Position numbers and translations under genes: made by a program. From Ardenticatenales bacterium (GTDB lineage Bacteria; Chloroflexota; Anaerolineae; Epilineales; Epilineaceae): a stretch of 32,412 nt of DNA. The stretch is taken from the NCBI GenBank assembly GCA_020853525.1, contig JADYYS010000025.1, positions 1 to 32,412 of the forward strand, read 5' to 3'. Below are positions 22,788 to 30,351 of the stretch, in pieces. How positions within the stretch are numbered: the stretch's first letter is position 1; the number at the start of each line of letters is the position of its first letter. The notes below the pieces were generated by a model. That model had not been told where the DNA came from. It was given only the letters and a program-made list of their open reading frames with translations, and did not search any database.

Positions 22788-23216
22788 ATGGCAACGTGGA
22801 TTCAGGCTCTGTCCGCCTATCGGCCGCGCATCGTCGGCGCCGTGACGGTCGGTCTCGACGAGCTGGCCGACTACCTGGCCGTCGGGACGCTGGTGACGCG
22901 TCCGCTGGCCCGGATGGTCCTCGAGGAGCTGGGCCGCATCGTGCTGCTGCAGCTGCGCGACGGCAAGAAGGTCCGGCTGCCGGGCATCGGCGTGTTCGGC
23001 GTCGAAGTCCGGATGGACGGGACGATGTACCCGACGGTCCGCCTGGCGAGCGAGCTGCGCGACGGGCTGGCGGACATCGACGCCTTCCAGGGGACGATCC
23101 AGCACCGGGAGTCGATCGGGCTGGACCTGGCGTCGCTGAAGGAGCGCTGGGACCGGGAGCACCCGGGCGATGCGCTGGAGATGCCGCCGGGGCGCACGAA
23201 AGCTACGACGATGTAG
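22788..23216 (+). CDS. HU-like (HU-HIG type) DNA-binding domain protein
   Basis: The 142-aa product resembles the HU/IHF fold. A helical N-terminal half (LDELADYLAVGTLVTRPLARMVLEELGRIVLLQL) is followed by the signature DGKKVRLPGIGVFGVEVR, equivalent to the GxxVxLxGFGxF segment of HU. A C-terminal extension (about 95-142) is charged and unassigned. The DNA-bending arm is shorter than in classical HU, as in the HU-HIG group. The ATG at 22788 has AGGAG eight bases upstream. It is monocistronic, with a hairpin terminator downstream. A nucleoid or regulatory role is inferred only from the fold. Confidence 0.72.
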   Translation: MATWIQALSAYRPRIVGAVTVGLDELADYLAVGTLVTRPLARMVLEELGRIVLLQLRDGKKVRLPGIGVFGVEVRMDGTMYPTVRLASELRDGLADIDAFQGTIQHRESIGLDLASLKERWDREHPGDALEMPPGRTKATTM

Positions 23217-23256
23217 CCACTCCGCGTGCGGGAGGGACAACCGAATAGACAGGCGC

Positions 23257-23290
23257 GAGGGGCGGTCCGAGTGGGGGCCGCCCCTCTCTG
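23257..23290 (+). terminator. Terminator-like hairpin after the HU-like gene
   Basis: A perfect 9-bp stem (23257-23265 with 23278-23286) and 12-base loop is followed by TCTG. It lies between the HU-like gene and the next promoter. Confidence 0.55.
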
Positions 23291-23291
23291 C

Positions 23292-23300
23292 TGCTATCAT
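23292..23300 (+). promoter_or_regulatory. Extended -10 promoter of the small gene at 23333
   Basis: TGCTATCAT (23292-23300) is an extended -10 element, almost the same as the one before the NYN gene. No -35 is evident. Transcription would start near 23307, about 25 nt before the chosen ATG. Confidence 0.5.
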
Positions 23301-23332
23301 GCCGCCGCACGTCTGCCATGATCGGAGCCGCT

Positions 23333-23563
23333 ATGCCTGCCACGCCTGACACCCTGTCGATGGACCCGCGCGCCGTACGACTGCGCTTGGCATTCGATCT
23401 GTTCGAGGCAGGTGTGGCGATGGAGCGACTTCGCTTGCGCCGCAACCACCCTGGCCTGTCGGACGCGGAGGTCGAGGAGCTGCTCCGGCGATGGCTGCGG
23501 CGTGAGGGGGAACCGGGTGACGCCAGCGGGAGGGTTGTCCCGTGGCCGCGGACGACACGATGA
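23333..23563 (+). CDS. Small conserved protein of unknown function
   Basis: The 76-aa product is mostly helical and charged. Its core, VRLRLAFDLFEAGVAMERLRLRRNHPGLSDAEVEELLRRWL, fits a small family that I recall as often paired with nucleotidyltransferase (AbiEii-like) genes; this recollection is unverified. The ATG at 23333 has GGAG five bases upstream; an in-frame ATG at 23318 would begin about 11 nt after the predicted transcription start and lacks a ribosome-binding site. Its stop codon overlaps the start of a short reading frame (ATGA), which suggests a coupled partner that is now truncated. No function is assigned. Confidence 0.65.
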   Translation: MPATPDTLSMDPRAVRLRLAFDLFEAGVAMERLRLRRNHPGLSDAEVEELLRRWLRREGEPGDASGRVVPWPRTTR

Positions 23564-23619
23564 ATCCGTTGCAGCGCGTGCTCGGCGCCTCGATGAGATG
23601 CCTGGCGGATCTCGGTTAG
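23560..23619 (+). pseudogene. Truncated coupled reading frame (possible nucleotidyltransferase remnant)
   Basis: An ATG overlapping the stop of the small gene (ATGA at 23560-23563) opens 19 codons, MNPLQRVLGASMRCLADLG, and stops at a TAG inside the first full copy of the 22-bp repeat array. The peptide resembles the start of AbiEii-like nucleotidyltransferases (an N-terminal helix before the conserved GG-S segment), but the rest is absent. It is either a gene cut off by the array or a chance short frame. Confidence 0.35.
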
Positions 23620-23741
23620 ACAGCCGTCGTGTCTAACCGAGACAGGACGCATGTCTCGGTTAGACACGACGCGAGTCTCGGTTAGATCTTCGGGCGATCT
23701 CGGAAGGACACGGCGCGGGTCTCGGCGTTCGACCCGAGGGG
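23588..23741. repeat. Phased 22-bp repeat array with an inverted unit
   Basis: The 11-bp word TCTCGGTTAGA occurs exactly at 23610, 23654 and 23676, and in inverted form (TCTAACCGAGA) at 23632. Degenerate copies lie at 23588 and 23698 (8/11) and 23720 (6/11). All seven start positions are exactly 22 bp apart. Around 23630-23666 the repeats form a perfect 15-bp inverted pair with a 7-bp loop. The array lies between the truncated frame and the oxidoreductase gene; the remaining stretch to 23802 shows nothing else. Confidence 0.85.
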
Positions 23742-23802
23742 TGTAGACTCCGGGCGGCGGGATCGAGTTTCCGAGTCCCGCTTTCGGCAACCGAGGTGCA
23801 CC

Positions 23803-24783
23803 ATCAAGGCGATCGTTCAAGACAGATATGGTTCCGCCGATGTCCTGCAGTTCAAGGACATCGCCAAGCCGGAGCCTGGCGACGACGATGTGCTCGTCCG
23901 CGTCCACGCCGCGGGCGTCGACCGGGGCGTTTGGCATCTGATGACGGGGCTGCCGTACCTGATGCGGGTCATCGGGATGGGCTTCCGCGCGCCCAAGGTG
24001 GCGGTGCGGGGCCGGGAGGTCGCCGGGACGGTCGAGGCGGTCGGCCGGAACGTGACGGCGTTCAAGGCGGGCGACGAGGTCTACGGGTTCAGCGACGGCA
24101 GCTTCGCCGAGTACGTGTGCGCCAAGGCGACGCAGCTCGCGCCGAAGCCGAAGAACGTCACGTTCGAGCAGGCGGCGGTGGTGCCGGTGTCCGCGATCAC
24201 CGCGCTCCACAGCGTCCGCGACGCGGGCGATCTGAAGGCGGGCCAGAAGGCGCTGATCATCGGCGCCTCGGGCGGCGTCGGCACGTACGCGGTGCAGATC
24301 GCCAAGGCGATCGGCGCCGAGGTGACGGGCGTCTGCAGCACGGGCAAGGCGGACCTCGTCCGGTCGATCGGCGCCGACCACGTGATCGACTACACCCGCG
24401 AGGACTGCACGGACGGCTCGCGCCGCTACGACCTCATCGTCGACACGGGCGGCCGGCGGCCGTTGTCCCAGCTGCGGCGGGCGTTGAACGCCGATGGGAC
24501 GTTGGTGGTGGTCGGCGGCGAGGGCGGGGGCCGGTTTATGGGCGGCTTCTTGCGCGGGATGCTGGCACCGCTGCGGGCGATGGGGTCCAAGCAGAAGCTG
24601 AAGGGGCTCATGCCGGACGAGCGGAAGGACGACCTGGTCGCGCTGACGGGGATGATCGAGGCCGGCCAGGTCGTGCCGGTCGTCGACAAGGCGTTTCCGC
24701 TGGGCGAGGCGGCGGAGGCGGTGCGGTACATGGAGCAGGGGCGGGCGCGGGGGAAGGTGGTGGTGCGGGTTTTGCCGGGGTGA
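23803..24783 (+). CDS. MDR-family NAD(P)-dependent quinone/alcohol oxidoreductase with apparent ATC start
   Basis: The 326-codon frame encodes a zinc-independent medium-chain dehydrogenase/reductase. The N-terminal segment KAIVQDRYGSADVLQF leads into VLVRVHAAGVDRG, REVAGTVEAVGRNV, GDEVYGF and the NAD(P)-binding GASGGVG (154-160). The position where relatives have ATG (MKAIVQ...) reads ATC at 23803-23805, with GAGG six bases upstream exactly as a ribosome-binding site should be. No in-frame ATG, GTG or TTG lies between the preceding repeats and that point. The next usable start, GTG at 23890, would remove 29 conserved residues. Either a rare AUC start, a silencing mutation or a base error. The substrate is unknown. 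Confidence 0.8.
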   Translation: MKAIVQDRYGSADVLQFKDIAKPEPGDDDVLVRVHAAGVDRGVWHLMTGLPYLMRVIGMGFRAPKVAVRGREVAGTVEAVGRNVTAFKAGDEVYGFSDGSFAEYVCAKATQLAPKPKNVTFEQAAVVPVSAITALHSVRDAGDLKAGQKALIIGASGGVGTYAVQIAKAIGAEVTGVCSTGKADLVRSIGADHVIDYTREDCTDGSRRYDLIVDTGGRRPLSQLRRALNADGTLVVVGGEGGGRFMGGFLRGMLAPLRAMGSKQKLKGLMPDERKDDLVALTGMIEAGQVVPVVDKAFPLGEAAEAVRYMEQGRARGKVVVRVLPG

Positions 24784-25155: not shown

Positions 25156-25245
25156 CGACGCACATACCCTGCGATCGGGCACTCCTCATGTCGGCGAACT
25201 TCGGACGCGTCGTCGCGCATGTCACGGCCAGTGGAAGGAGCAGAA

Positions 25246-25470
25246 ATGCCGCCGGTAACAATCGATGAAATCGAAGAGCGTATGCGGCAGCTGCCTCCAG
25301 AGAAACTCTCCGTCGTGTATGACTTTGTCTCGTACCTGCTGGATCGTGATCTTGCCGACCTCTTCGGAGACGCTTCATCGGATGCACGCGCTACTATGCT
25401 GGCATCCGAGGCCGTGCTCGGCCGCGACTGGCTGCGCGAGGAAGAAGATGAGGCGTGGGCAGATTTGTAA
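25246..25470 (+). CDS. Antitoxin-like protein (partner of a PemK/MazF-type toxin)
   Basis: The 74-aa, strongly acidic protein contains TIDEIEERMRQLPPEKLSVVYDFVSYLLDR, the pattern of DUF2281-like antitoxins, and ends in a charged tail rich in Glu and Asp (REEEDEAWADL) able to mask a toxin. The ATG at 25246 has AAGGAG five bases upstream; an upstream in-frame ATG (25219) lacks one. It overlaps the toxin gene by 16 bp, the usual antitoxin-first order. Antitoxin identity rests on size, charge and position rather than a named domain, so it is moderately sure. Confidence 0.72.
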   Translation: MPPVTIDEIEERMRQLPPEKLSVVYDFVSYLLDRDLADLFGDASSDARATMLASEAVLGRDWLREEEDEAWADL

Positions 25471-25787
25471 GGGGCGACGTGGTGGTGGCGCCTTTTCCGT
25501 TTTCGGATCTGAGCGCTGCAAAGAAGCGACCCGCGTTGGTCGTTGCTCAGCTTACCGGAGACGACGTCGTTCTTTGTCAGATTACCAGCAGGCAAGTGAC
25601 AGATGAGTATGCAATTGCTTTGTCTGAGAGCGACTTCATGTCCGGAAGTTTGCGTCAATCCAGCAACATCCGACCCAATCGCCTCTTCACGGCCGATACA
25701 GGCATCATTCTGTACCGTGCTGCGACGATCAGCCAGTCCAAGATGAAGGATGTGCAGGACAAGCTCATCCACATGTTCTCAGACTAG
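25455..25787 (+). CDS. PemK/MazF-family toxin (mRNA endoribonuclease)
   Basis: The 110-aa product has the family opening VRGDVVVAPFPFSDLSAAKKRPALVV, then DDVVLCQITSR and SNIRPNRLFTAD, matching the MazF/PemK beta-barrel fold that cleaves mRNA at specific short sites and is inhibited by its antitoxin. The start is GTG 25455, inside the end of the antitoxin gene, so the toxin is translationally coupled. Base composition is lower in GC than its neighbours (many T-ending codons), which suggests recent acquisition. It stands at the left side of the restriction-modification island. Confidence 0.9.
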   Translation: MGRFVRGDVVVAPFPFSDLSAAKKRPALVVAQLTGDDVVLCQITSRQVTDEYAIALSESDFMSGSLRQSSNIRPNRLFTADTGIILYRAATISQSKMKDVQDKLIHMFSD

Positions 25788-27340: not shown

Positions 27341-28834
27341 ATGACCCTCGCCGAACTGAAATCCCACCTCTGGAATTGCGCCGAGATCCTCCGCGGCAGC
27401 GCCGTCGACCGCACGGATTGGAAGGCGTACATCCTGCCGCTGCTGTTCTTCAAGCGGCTCAGCGATGTCTGGGACGAGGAGACGGCCGAGGCGGTGGCGG
27501 ACTTCGGCGACGCCGATCCCGTCGACTACCCCGAGGTTCACCGTTTCGTCCTGCCGCCCGGCTGCCACTGGGACGACGTCCGCGCGACGCCGGCGAACGT
27601 CGGCGCTGCGTTGTCGCACGCGATGCGGGAGATCGAGCGGGCGAATCCGGAGACGCTGTACCGGGTGTTCGGGGCGGCGGACTGGGGCAATCGGGAGATG
27701 TTGACCGACGAGATCCTCAAGGACCTGATCGAGGGGCTGTCGGCGGTGGCGCTGGGGAACGCGGCGGTGGGGACGGATGTGCTGGGGGACGCGTACGAGT
27801 ATCTGATCGGGAAGTTCGCGGACATCACGAAGCGGAAGAAGGCGGGGGAGTTCTACACGCCGCGGAGTGTGGTGCGGATGATGGTGGACATTCTGGACCC
27901 GCAGTCGGGGGAGAGCATCTACGATCCGGCGTGCGGGACGGGCGGCATGCTGCTCGGGGCGATCGAGCACGTGCAGCGGGCGGGCGGGGATCCGCGGACG
28001 TTCTTCGGGAAGATCTATGGGCAGGAGAAGAACCTGACGACGGCGTCCATCGCCCGGATGAACCTGGTGTTGCACGGGATCGAGGATTTCCAGATCATCC
28101 GCGAGGACACGCTACGCAGTCCGGCGTTCACGGACTCGGCGCGGGGGTGGCTGGCGACGTTCGATTGCGTGATCGCGAATCCGCCGTTCAGCTTGAAGGA
28201 GTGGGGGCGCGAGGTCTGGGAAAACGATCCGTGGGGGCGGGTGCAGTTCGGGCTGCCGCCGGAGAGCTACGGTGACTACGCCTGGGTGCAGCACATGGTG
28301 CACTCGATGGCGGTCGGCACGGGGCGGATGGCTGTGGTGTTGCCGCAGGGGGCGTTGTTCCGGAAGGATGCGGAGGGGCGGATTCGGCAGAAGCTGCTCG
28401 AGAACGACCTGGTGGAGGCGGTGATCGGGCTGGCGCCGAACATCTTCTACGGTACGGGCCTGGCGCCGGCGGTGGTCGTGTTGCGGCGGAGCAAGCCGGC
28501 GGAGAGCAAGGGGCGGGTGCTGATCGTCGATGCGTCGAGCCTGTTCCGGAAAGGGCGGGCGCAGAACTACCTGGAGCTGGAGCACGCGCAGCAGATCGCG
28601 GCGTGGGTGCGGGCGTTCGAGGATGTGCCGGACCGGGCGAAGGTGGTGTCGCTGGATGAGATCAAGCAGGAGGACTGGACGCTGAACATCAGCCGCTACG
28701 TGCTGCCGCCGATCGGCGAGGACATTCCGCCATTGGCCGATGCGGTGGCGGCGTTCAAGGCGGCGCTGGCCGAGTGCCGCGCGGCCGAGGACCGCCTGCG
28801 CGAGGTGTTGACCGAGGGGGGCTGGCTGGCATGA
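27341..28834 (+). CDS. hsdM: Type I restriction-modification methyltransferase, HsdM copy 1
   Basis: The 497-aa protein is an N6-adenine methylase subunit of a type I R-M system. The N-terminal HsdM helical domain (LRGSAVDRTDWKAYILPLLF, FKRLSDVWDEE) is followed by the methylase domain with AdoMet motif I DPACGTGG (D195) and catalytic motif IV NPPF (N280). The target-selection segment GEFYTPRSVVRMMV is present. No clear Shine-Dalgarno precedes the ATG at 27341, which fits translation coupled to the upstream gene. It overlaps the second hsdM by four bases (ATGA). Third codon positions favour G. Confidence 0.95.
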   Translation: MTLAELKSHLWNCAEILRGSAVDRTDWKAYILPLLFFKRLSDVWDEETAEAVADFGDADPVDYPEVHRFVLPPGCHWDDVRATPANVGAALSHAMREIERANPETLYRVFGAADWGNREMLTDEILKDLIEGLSAVALGNAAVGTDVLGDAYEYLIGKFADITKRKKAGEFYTPRSVVRMMVDILDPQSGESIYDPACGTGGMLLGAIEHVQRAGGDPRTFFGKIYGQEKNLTTASIARMNLVLHGIEDFQIIREDTLRSPAFTDSARGWLATFDCVIANPPFSLKEWGREVWENDPWGRVQFGLPPESYGDYAWVQHMVHSMAVGTGRMAVVLPQGALFRKDAEGRIRQKLLENDLVEAVIGLAPNIFYGTGLAPAVVVLRRSKPAESKGRVLIVDASSLFRKGRAQNYLELEHAQQIAAWVRAFEDVPDRAKVVSLDEIKQEDWTLNISRYVLPPIGEDIPPLADAVAAFKAALAECRAAEDRLREVLTEGGWLA

Positions 28835-30351
28835 GCAAGGCGCCGGAGCACATGAGCCAGCAGGAGCTGGAGGCCTATCTGTGGGGCGCGGCGAAGCTCC
28901 TGCGGGGGCTGATCGACGCGGGCGACTACAAGCAGTACGTGTTTCCGTTGCTGTTCTTCAAGCGGCTGTCCGATGTCTGGGACGAAGAGTACGCGACGGC
29001 GCTGGCCGAGACGGACGGCGACGCGGCGTACGCCCGCTCGACGGCCGACGATCGCTTCCGCATCCCCGACGGCGCCCACTGGTCCGACGTGCGCGACGCT
29101 TCCCGCGATGTCGGCCGGGCGCTGCTCACTGCGTTCCGGGCGATCGAGGCGGCGAACTCGGAGCGGCTGGCGGGGGTGTTCGGGAACGCGTCGTGGACGG
29201 ACAAGGCGCAGTTGCCGGACGAGACGTTGAAGAATCTGATCGAGCACTTCTCGCAGCACACGCTGAGTCTGGCCGAGGTGCCCGAGGATGAGCTGGGCAA
29301 CGGCTACGAGTACCTGATCAAGCAGTTCGCGGACGACAGCGGCCACACGGCGCAGGAGTTCTACACGAACCGGACGCTGGTCCACTTGATGGTGCAGATG
29401 CTGGAGCCGCAGGCGGGCGAGACGATCTACGATCCGACGGTGGGCACGGGCGGGATGCTGATCTCGGCGCTGGCCGAGGTGAAGCGGCGGGGCGGCGATG
29501 CGCGGACGCTCGGGCTGTACGGGCAGGAGCTGATCCACATTACGGCGGCGATCGCGCGGATGAACCTGGTGCTGCACGGGGTCGAGGACTTCGAGGTGGT
29601 CGCCGGCAACACGCTGAGCAACCCGGCGTTCATCCAGGGCGATCGGCTGCGGACGTTCGACGTGGTGCTGGCGAACCCACCATACTCCATCAAGAAGTGG
29701 AACCGCGACGCCTGGCTGACGGACTCGTGGGGCCGCAACTTCCTGGGCACGCCGCCTCAGGGCCGGGCGGACTACGCGTTCTTCCAGCATATCCTGAAGA
29801 GCCTCGACCCGCAGACGGGCCGCTGCGCGATCCTCTTCCCGCACGGCGTACTGTTCCGCAACGAAGAGGCGGAGATGCGGCGCAAGCTCGTGGAGTCCGA
29901 CCTGCTGGAGTGCGTGCTCGGGCTGGGGCCGAACCTGTTCTACAACTCGCCGATGGAGGCGTGTGTGGTGATCTGCCGGACGCGGAAGCCGGCAGAGCGG
30001 AGGGGGAAGGTGTTGTTTATCGACGCGGTGCGGGAGGTGGCGCGGGAGCGGGCGGTGAGCTTTCTGCGGCCGGAGCATCAGGCGCGGATTGTGGCGGCGT
30101 ATCAGGCGTTTGCCGACGAGGCGGGGTTCGCCAAGGTGGCGACGATGGACAAGGTACTAGAGAAGGGCGGGAACCTGTCGATCCCGCGGTACGTTAGGCC
30201 GGTCGGGAATGGGGCGACGGACGTGGACCGGCAGGACCTGAAGTCGGCGTGGGCAGCGTTCGATGGGGACGGGCGGGAGTTCTGGCTCCAGATGGATGCG
30301 TTGGTCGATATGCTCGACAACGTTGTCGCCGAGGAAGTGCTTGATGCCTGA
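28831..30351 (+). CDS. hsdM: Type I restriction-modification methyltransferase, HsdM copy 2
   Basis: A second complete HsdM (506 aa), paralogous to but clearly different from the first. It has the same N-terminal domain (LLRGLIDAGDYKQYVFPLLF), EFYTNRTLVHLM, AdoMet motif DPTVGTGG (D201) and catalytic NPPY (N282). Both copies therefore look active. The ATG at 28831 overlaps the hsdM1 stop (ATGA), preceded by GAGGGGGG, and fixes the start despite an open frame upstream. Its stop overlaps hsdS by 8 bp. Two M subunits encoded in tandem with one S is atypical; a mixed M1-M2-S enzyme is a reasonable hypothesis. Confidence 0.94.
   Translation: MSKAPEHMSQQELEAYLWGAAKLLRGLIDAGDYKQYVFPLLFFKRLSDVWDEEYATALAETDGDAAYARSTADDRFRIPDGAHWSDVRDASRDVGRALLTAFRAIEAANSERLAGVFGNASWTDKAQLPDETLKNLIEHFSQHTLSLAEVPEDELGNGYEYLIKQFADDSGHTAQEFYTNRTLVHLMVQMLEPQAGETIYDPTVGTGGMLISALAEVKRRGGDARTLGLYGQELIHITAAIARMNLVLHGVEDFEVVAGNTLSNPAFIQGDRLRTFDVVLANPPYSIKKWNRDAWLTDSWGRNFLGTPPQGRADYAFFQHILKSLDPQTGRCAILFPHGVLFRNEEAEMRRKLVESDLLECVLGLGPNLFYNSPMEACVVICRTRKPAERRGKVLFIDAVREVARERAVSFLRPEHQARIVAAYQAFADEAGFAKVATMDKVLEKGGNLSIPRYVRPVGNGATDVDRQDLKSAWAAFDGDGREFWLQMDALVDMLDNVVAEEVLDA

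Follow-up and report, generated by a model that had tools for sequence, protein, structure and literature searches.

The window, a 32,412-nucleotide stretch of an Ardenticatenales bacterium contig, contains an array of palindromic units set at an exact 22-bp step downstream of an antitoxin gene and upstream of an oxidoreductase gene. Its genome contains nine or more such arrays at scattered places, with at least four kinds of core and a single period of 22 bp. Arrays laid out like this turn up in distant bacteria too, often next to the gene of an unusual HU-like DNA-packing protein. The array may be a set of cooperative binding sites for dimers of an HU-HIG-type protein, and so a dispersed protein-binding element, a reading with about an even chance of being correct. 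It probably marks a place where HU-like proteins line up on the chromosome.

The array is real, and phase-position scoring against TCTCGGTTAGA resolves five good units at 23610-23708 with a step of exactly 22 bp, flanked by two marginal positions in the same phase.

23610..23620, + strand: unit 1, exact TCTCGGTTAGA, 11/11; 13-bp dyad A-TCT-N5-AGA-C
23632..23642, - strand: unit 2, inverted word (TCTAACCGAGA), 11/11; TGTCT-N5-AGACA dyad at 23630-23644
23654..23664, + strand: unit 3, exact word TCTCGGTTAGA, 11/11; TGTCT-N5-AGACA dyad at 23652-23666
23676..23686, + strand: unit 4, exact word TCTCGGTTAGA, 11/11
23698..23708, + strand: unit 5, degenerate (TCTCGGAAGGA), 8/11; dyad bases 5/6
23588..23598, no strand assigned: marginal first position, CCTCGATGAGA, 8/11, within the coding remnant and possibly a chance match
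23720..23730, no strand assigned: marginal last position, TCTCGGCGTTC, 6/11, with the dyad mostly lost (3/6 bases kept)

The secure array is confined to 23610-23708 because the first marginal position is coding and the last keeps just three of six dyad bases. An initial annotation of this DNA had described seven phase positions at 22 bp with individual scores, and rescoring against TCTCGGTTAGA agrees with it exactly. The perfect 15-bp inverted pair that it placed in the array centre is likewise present, as the 15-mers at 23630-23644 and 23652-23666 are exact reverse complements. The array unit is the dyad R-TCT-N5-AGA-Y, and the spacers between units are non-conserved. Because each unit is itself a dyad, nothing but its asymmetric centre of 5 bp sets a "direct" unit apart from an "inverted" one, and the inverted unit 2 is the same pseudo-palindrome, flipped. 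Across the units of six arrays from this genome, the base 3′ of the unit is a pyrimidine in 24/24 and the base 5′ a purine in 22/24. Three copies of the exact 11-mer at 22-bp steps occurred in 0/100 first-order Markov windows.

The word TCTCGGTTAGA has 13 exact matches in the 4.27-Mb genome, all within four 22-bp arrays on contigs C25 (the window), C27, C33, and C52; the possibility raised earlier, that the word might be common genome-wide without periodicity, is thus set aside. The reversed-pattern control of TCTCGGTTAGA has no matches in the whole 4.27-Mb genome. A three-unit pattern finds six arrays in the whole genome and nothing else, which adds C19 and C59 with variant cores. Pairs of TCTN5AGA with gaps of 3-30 across the whole genome fall at the 22-bp period in 16 of 16 cases, and the control gives 0. 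A scan with no assumed core, run at periods 16 to 40 over 1.44 Mb of this genome that had not been selected for arrays, finds three further arrays, all of period 22 and with cores unrelated to TCT.

C19: three-unit-pattern array, cores TCTCAGTGAGA/TCTCACCGAGA
C59: three-unit-pattern array, core TCTGCGTTAGA
C19:305: core-agnostic array, core ATCACCGTGAT, period 22
C7:324-422: core-agnostic array, core TTCTTSMAGAA, period 22
C28:5049-5147: core-agnostic array, core TTCTTGAAGAA, period 22

Other periods from 16 to 40, multiples of 3 excepted, yield no arrays in the same 1.44 Mb; the multiples of 3 give few matches, and those printed are GC-rich and coding-like.

The genes around the window array are as follows.

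22788..23216, + strand: gene for an HU-HIG protein of 142 aa (HU/IHF superfamily), the candidate binder of the array
23318..23563, + strand: Rv0078B-related antitoxin gene, 81 aa (Pfam PF18993, E 1e-16), between the HU-HIG gene and the array
23560..23622, + strand: 19-codon frame with translation MNPLQRVLGASMRCLADLG*, ATGA-coupled to the antitoxin gene, with its TAG stop in unit 1
23803..24783, + strand: zinc-type NAD(P) oxidoreductase, MDR family (Pfam ADH_N, ADH_zinc_N_2)

The initial annotation held that the array truncates a short coupled frame, and this proves correct: MNPLQRVLGASMRCLADLG* overlaps the upstream gene by ATGA and stops in unit 1. Judged from sequence, the frame may be the opening of a partner gene that has been lost and whose place the array now occupies. 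The homologue in the same-family genome G002 (L231) is interrupted by an internal TGA stop. The oxidoreductase frame (IKAIVQDRYGS...) opens with ATC at 23803-23805 where ATG is expected; either this start codon is a rare one or the sequence is in error. Farther along the window, 25219-25787 holds a second apparent toxin-antitoxin pair whose second protein is PemK/MazF-like by eye, and 27341-30351 holds two overlapping tandem genes similar to type I restriction-modification methylases, apparently paralogues.

All six TCT arrays of this genome are intergenic. At least four arrays of the genome lie between convergent genes (C27, C52, C19, and C19:305), those on C25, C33, and C59 lie between co-directional genes, and none lies between a divergent pair. 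Arrays fetched by pattern from elsewhere, with orientation assigned by a rough ORF caller, fall between convergent ORFs in 20 cases, co-directional in 42, and divergent in 9; another 35 lie inside a called ORF and 18 are unresolved. An HNH-endonuclease-like gene split across two frames adjoins the C27 array (L050 5379-6036).

A phased operator for an ordinary helix-turn-helix (HTH) regulator of the TetR, MarR, or two-component type, acting on the oxidoreductase or other genes with the HU genes incidental, is an unlikely explanation. Dyads spaced by two turns do look like cooperative HTH operators such as those of BvgA, and the window array lies 62 bp before the oxidoreductase coding sequence. 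Against this stand the convergent placement just described with its lack of divergent cases, the lack of isolated exact copies of TCTCGGTTAGA outside arrays, and the several unrelated cores that share one period in a single genome. Moreover, a tally of 144 array-flanking ORFs from other genomes shows no HTH family outranking the HU-type ones in frequency. A consensus scan finds no sigma-70-like promoter near the window array. Arrays that sit at 3′ ends, in many cases with converging genes on either side, give little reason to see an oxidoreductase operator here. The interpretation in the initial annotation is partly supported as a whole, but a regulatory link to the oxidoreductase is not upheld: across genomes the more consistent neighbor is an HU-family gene, in the window that at 22788-23216.

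The candidate binding protein, an HU-HIG-type member of the HU/IHF superfamily, is encoded in the window at 22788-23216, and its stop codon lies 394 bp from the first exact unit. Its product matches Pfam PF18291 (HU-HIG) with E 5e-8 and 33.4 bits, above the model's cut-off of 26.2, and matches profiles of solved HU chains with E 7e-9. The AlphaFold model (pLDDT 88) predicts an HU fold, with an HU core at TMt 0.92 to 4p3v and 1.2 A over 74 columns, and has a short beta-hairpin where HU has long arms. A paralogue is encoded beside the C28 array.

The HU idea arose from the data, as HU-DNA_bdg and DUF4469 are the most frequent families in the tally of the same 144 flanking ORFs. Profile searches locate HU-HIG or HU-DNA_bdg genes no more than 430 bp from an array at ten loci in at least eight genomes (L097, L100, L108, L112, L145, L182, L192 with two genes, L218, own C28 as L334, and the window), and find none in the remaining approximately 720 kb of the pattern-fetched blocks. 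Under random placement, the probability that all 7 or 8 HU matches fall near arrays is about 6e-6 or 1e-6. In six cases the array precedes the HU gene, at a distance of 45-230 bp, and in five it is downstream. With 10 HU-HIG matches, this genome leads the 396 genomes of its class; besides those of the window and C28, the matches are on C65, C64, C49, C62, C3, C13, C71, and C36. The sole TCT array of another genome (G220) sits 56 bp upstream of an HU-HIG gene. Against the link, just two of this genome's nine known arrays have an HU-HIG gene close by, and in other genomes the majority of arrays lack such a neighbor. G001, a genome of the same family, also combines 9 HU-HIG matches with the lack of any TCT array.

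The only independent test of the HU idea is a reverse one, in which loci were fetched by HU-protein similarity alone and scanned with no assumed core. Locus L371 contains a 22-bp array with core TTCCGTAAGAA approximately 100 bp upstream of its HU gene. In Bacteroides finegoldii (L375), four units of TAAAGC-N3-GCTTTA (core AAGCN3GCTT) recur at 22 bp approximately 440 bp upstream of the gene, and the near-identical relative L377 also carries a 22-bp array. Prevotella nigrescens has a weaker array 3.2 kb from its HU gene, and the core-agnostic scan finds no array at L372 or L373. All matches in the reverse test are at 22 bp, against a background of one 22-bp match in 595 kb. L370 is not counted because it is the contig of L192, which had been found earlier by its array. 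Independent positive lineages are few, two or three.

Two related observations come from these loci. L192/L370 and L371 are contigs from viral collections, each with two neighboring HU-HIG genes and a 22-bp array, and their cores differ. On pTS2 of Treponema saccharophilum (L376 4705-4821), five palindromic units GCGYNATTA...CGC lie directly downstream of an HU-DNA_bdg gene with steps of 23, 23, 24, and 23 bp.

Similar arrays are present in other Chloroflexota and in Bacteroidota, with cores that differ by genome. TCT-core arrays are absent from 99 relatives at up to one mismatch. In the two same-family genomes, the stretches scanned for any core, 224 kb in G001 and 144 kb in G002, contain no array. 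This bears on the second doubt raised in the initial annotation, absence from close relatives, for the part of each genome covered. A relaxed three-unit pattern matches 15 of 396 genomes of the class. Once simple tandem repeats (steps of 17 or 21 bp) and a few isolated irregular matches are set aside, what it picks up are 22-bp arrays, in some of which one step is 21 bp. One matching genome, G332, coincides in coordinates with the Anaerolineae MAG Bin_81R, which places the window in the Anaerolineae. Among 84,980 species genomes there are at least 116 stretches, many of them in Prevotella and its relatives, and the cores are genome-specific. In Candidatus Physcousia equi (G100), whose core is GTTTCT-N5-AGAAAC, the 2.4-Mb genome contains 152 two-unit pairs, and of the pairs listed almost every one is spaced at 22 bp. 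The cultured laboratory strain Marinifilum flexuosum DSM 21950 carries an array of this type as well. Hallella arrays have the core TCATCT-N5-AGATGA, and in both Physcousia and Hallella the half-sites alternate every 11 bp. The abundance of pairs also makes the Physcousia genome a rich source for a binding-site profile.

The idea that the arrays are neutral minisatellites, functionless tandem duplications of a 22-bp unit, is improbable. Loci L074, L155, and L167 have near-identical spacers and look like recent tandem duplications. In this genome and in Physcousia, however, unrelated spacers separate exact dyads, units are inverted in place, and the 22-bp period is held across phyla. Hallella mizrahii (L106) and Prevotella UBA7764 (L131) share an orthologous array whose flanks are 93% identical; its units and spacers differ between the two, and the 22-bp step is kept.

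Whether the units act as duplex sites or as hairpins can be judged from covariation, since paired positions in RNA or cruciform stems should covary. In 108 Physcousia units, the frequencies of Watson-Crick partners across the dyad and those expected under independence are 0.66/0.70, 0.81/0.82, 0.81/0.82, and 0.44/0.48, and no excess over independence occurs in the Physcousia, Hallella, or Bin_81R sets. The R/Y combinations of this genome's arrays, counted by eye (A-C 10, A-T 6, G-C 6, G-T 5), also match independence. The pooled bin-243-like Chloroflexota set shows paired changes at two dyad positions, which possibly come from the pooling of genomes. A symmetric protein dimer on duplex DNA is favored because the dyads lack covariation in the cleanest sets and their flanks are symmetric; from these sequence patterns, the evidence favors units that would bind dimers on duplex DNA rather than form RNA hairpins.

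REP/BIME-like palindromes that fold as RNA or DNA hairpins, whether they form mRNA 3′ ends, serve as gyrase sites, or arise from a REP-associated Y1 transposase, are a rather unlikely source of the arrays. Like REPs, the arrays sit at the 3′ ends of genes and between convergent ones, Y1 transposase genes exist in the genome (C9:35322 and C59:59277), and the C52 array is a near-perfect palindrome of approximately 84 bp. The missing covariation and the common A-C mismatches at R/Y positions argue against hairpins, spacer symmetry is significant in C52 only, and the two Y1 genes have no known array, of the nine, in their vicinity, with no TCT array at either Y1 locus. The C52 palindrome (L052 5039-5125) includes the spacers and is unlike the other arrays. 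An RNA hairpin or cruciform was rejected for lack of covariation in the cleanest sets and because a long palindrome occurs in C52 only. An intrinsic terminator, sought as a GC stem followed by a T run, is absent from 23200-24000, and the array matches no Rfam RNA family.

The preferred reading, binding by HU-HIG-type proteins, can be set out as a mechanism. Homodimers of a DNA-binding protein would occupy each R-TCT-N5-AGA-Y dyad. The 22-bp step would equal two helical turns with one half-site per turn, so the dimers would share one face of the duplex; neighbors on one face would therefore touch, bind cooperatively, and form a short nucleoprotein patch. The initial annotation had proposed dimers on the same face, and the exact two-turn phasing, dyad units, and BvgA-like geometry agree with it, while dimer binding itself is what we infer from that geometry. 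It counts against this reading that the classical HU-family protein bends DNA from the minor groove with weak sequence specificity. A protein of the HU-HIG type is the most likely binder, and in this genome it could be the 22788-23216 product or one of its approximately nine paralogues. Perhaps each paralogue reads its own core, which would explain several unrelated cores of the same period in one genome. Arrays upstream of an HU-HIG gene may autoregulate that gene, and those at gene 3′ ends may serve as chromosome-organizing or boundary patches.

A broader proposal, held tentatively and at somewhat less than an even chance, is that the arrays belong to an undescribed cross-phylum chromosome-organizing system in which HU-HIG families each have cognate 22-bp-phased palindromic arrays and their dimers polymerize along one face. 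Such a system would place cognate arrays at gene 3′ ends and beside their own HU-HIG gene, and would entail sequence-specific array binding by one branch of the HU superfamily. The HU-HIG reading, if right, would give recognizable DNA sites to a sizeable part of the HU/IHF superfamily that has no assigned function, and the DNA targets, autoregulation, and genome-organizing role of HU-HIG proteins would become directly testable. The sequence rule, dyads at exactly 22 bp with free spacers, is scored weakly by ordinary repeat finders and is usable in any genome. An open-access literature search found nothing on topic for HU-HIG or 22-bp arrays, and the earlier remark that no named element has this form holds to the extent that none turned up there.

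Several known systems share parts of this form. The phage lambda operators OR and OL are imperfect dyads of approximately 17 bp, a few bp apart and cooperatively bound. The arrays resemble them in their dyads; lambda, however, has three sites at one locus with the repressor gene, whereas here 3-6 units recur at many loci. The iterons of plasmid R6K are 22-bp direct repeats beside the rep gene and share the period of approximately two turns, but the present arrays are chromosomal dyads with unrelated spacers and no rep gene seen adjoining them. Plasmid iterons were rejected as an identity for the arrays on the grounds that units occur in both orientations and that no replication-initiator family is among the flanking genes scanned.

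REP and BIME elements are likewise dispersed extragenic palindromes, often between convergent genes. REP palindromes carry a GTAG tag at the stem base, flank a Y1 transposase gene, and have variable spacing (PMC3733652), whereas the present units are short dyads in a fixed 22-bp phase with no GTAG tag and no stem covariation in the cleanest sets.

TIGR arrays have an edge-spacer-loop-spacer unit of approximately 36 nt, short spacers, and a Nop-domain Tas protein (PMC12045711). They share with the present arrays short unique spacers between locus-specific repeats, and a guide-RNA array of the CRISPR or TIGR kind, its spacers 9 to 11 nt long, would account for palindromic, locus-specific repeats with unique spacers of fixed length. 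This is a very improbable explanation, as the arrays have one repeat type in both orientations within a single array, a period of 22 and not about 36, no 36-nt unit, and no Rfam match, and the Nop-domain protein (PF01798) is absent from the genome. TIGR-Tas, which the 9-bp spacers had suggested, was rejected on its missing Nop protein and wrong period.

The closest likeness in phasing, compared here by spacing alone, is to BvgA. At the Bordetella fha and ptx promoters, BvgA dimers bind head-to-head with centers 22 bp apart, one monomer per turn, on the same face (PMC7250471). BvgA arrays abut the -35 element of regulated promoters and many of their sites are weak, whereas the units described here are near-identical, have several cores per genome, lie mostly at gene 3′ ends, and are linked to a protein that is HU-like.
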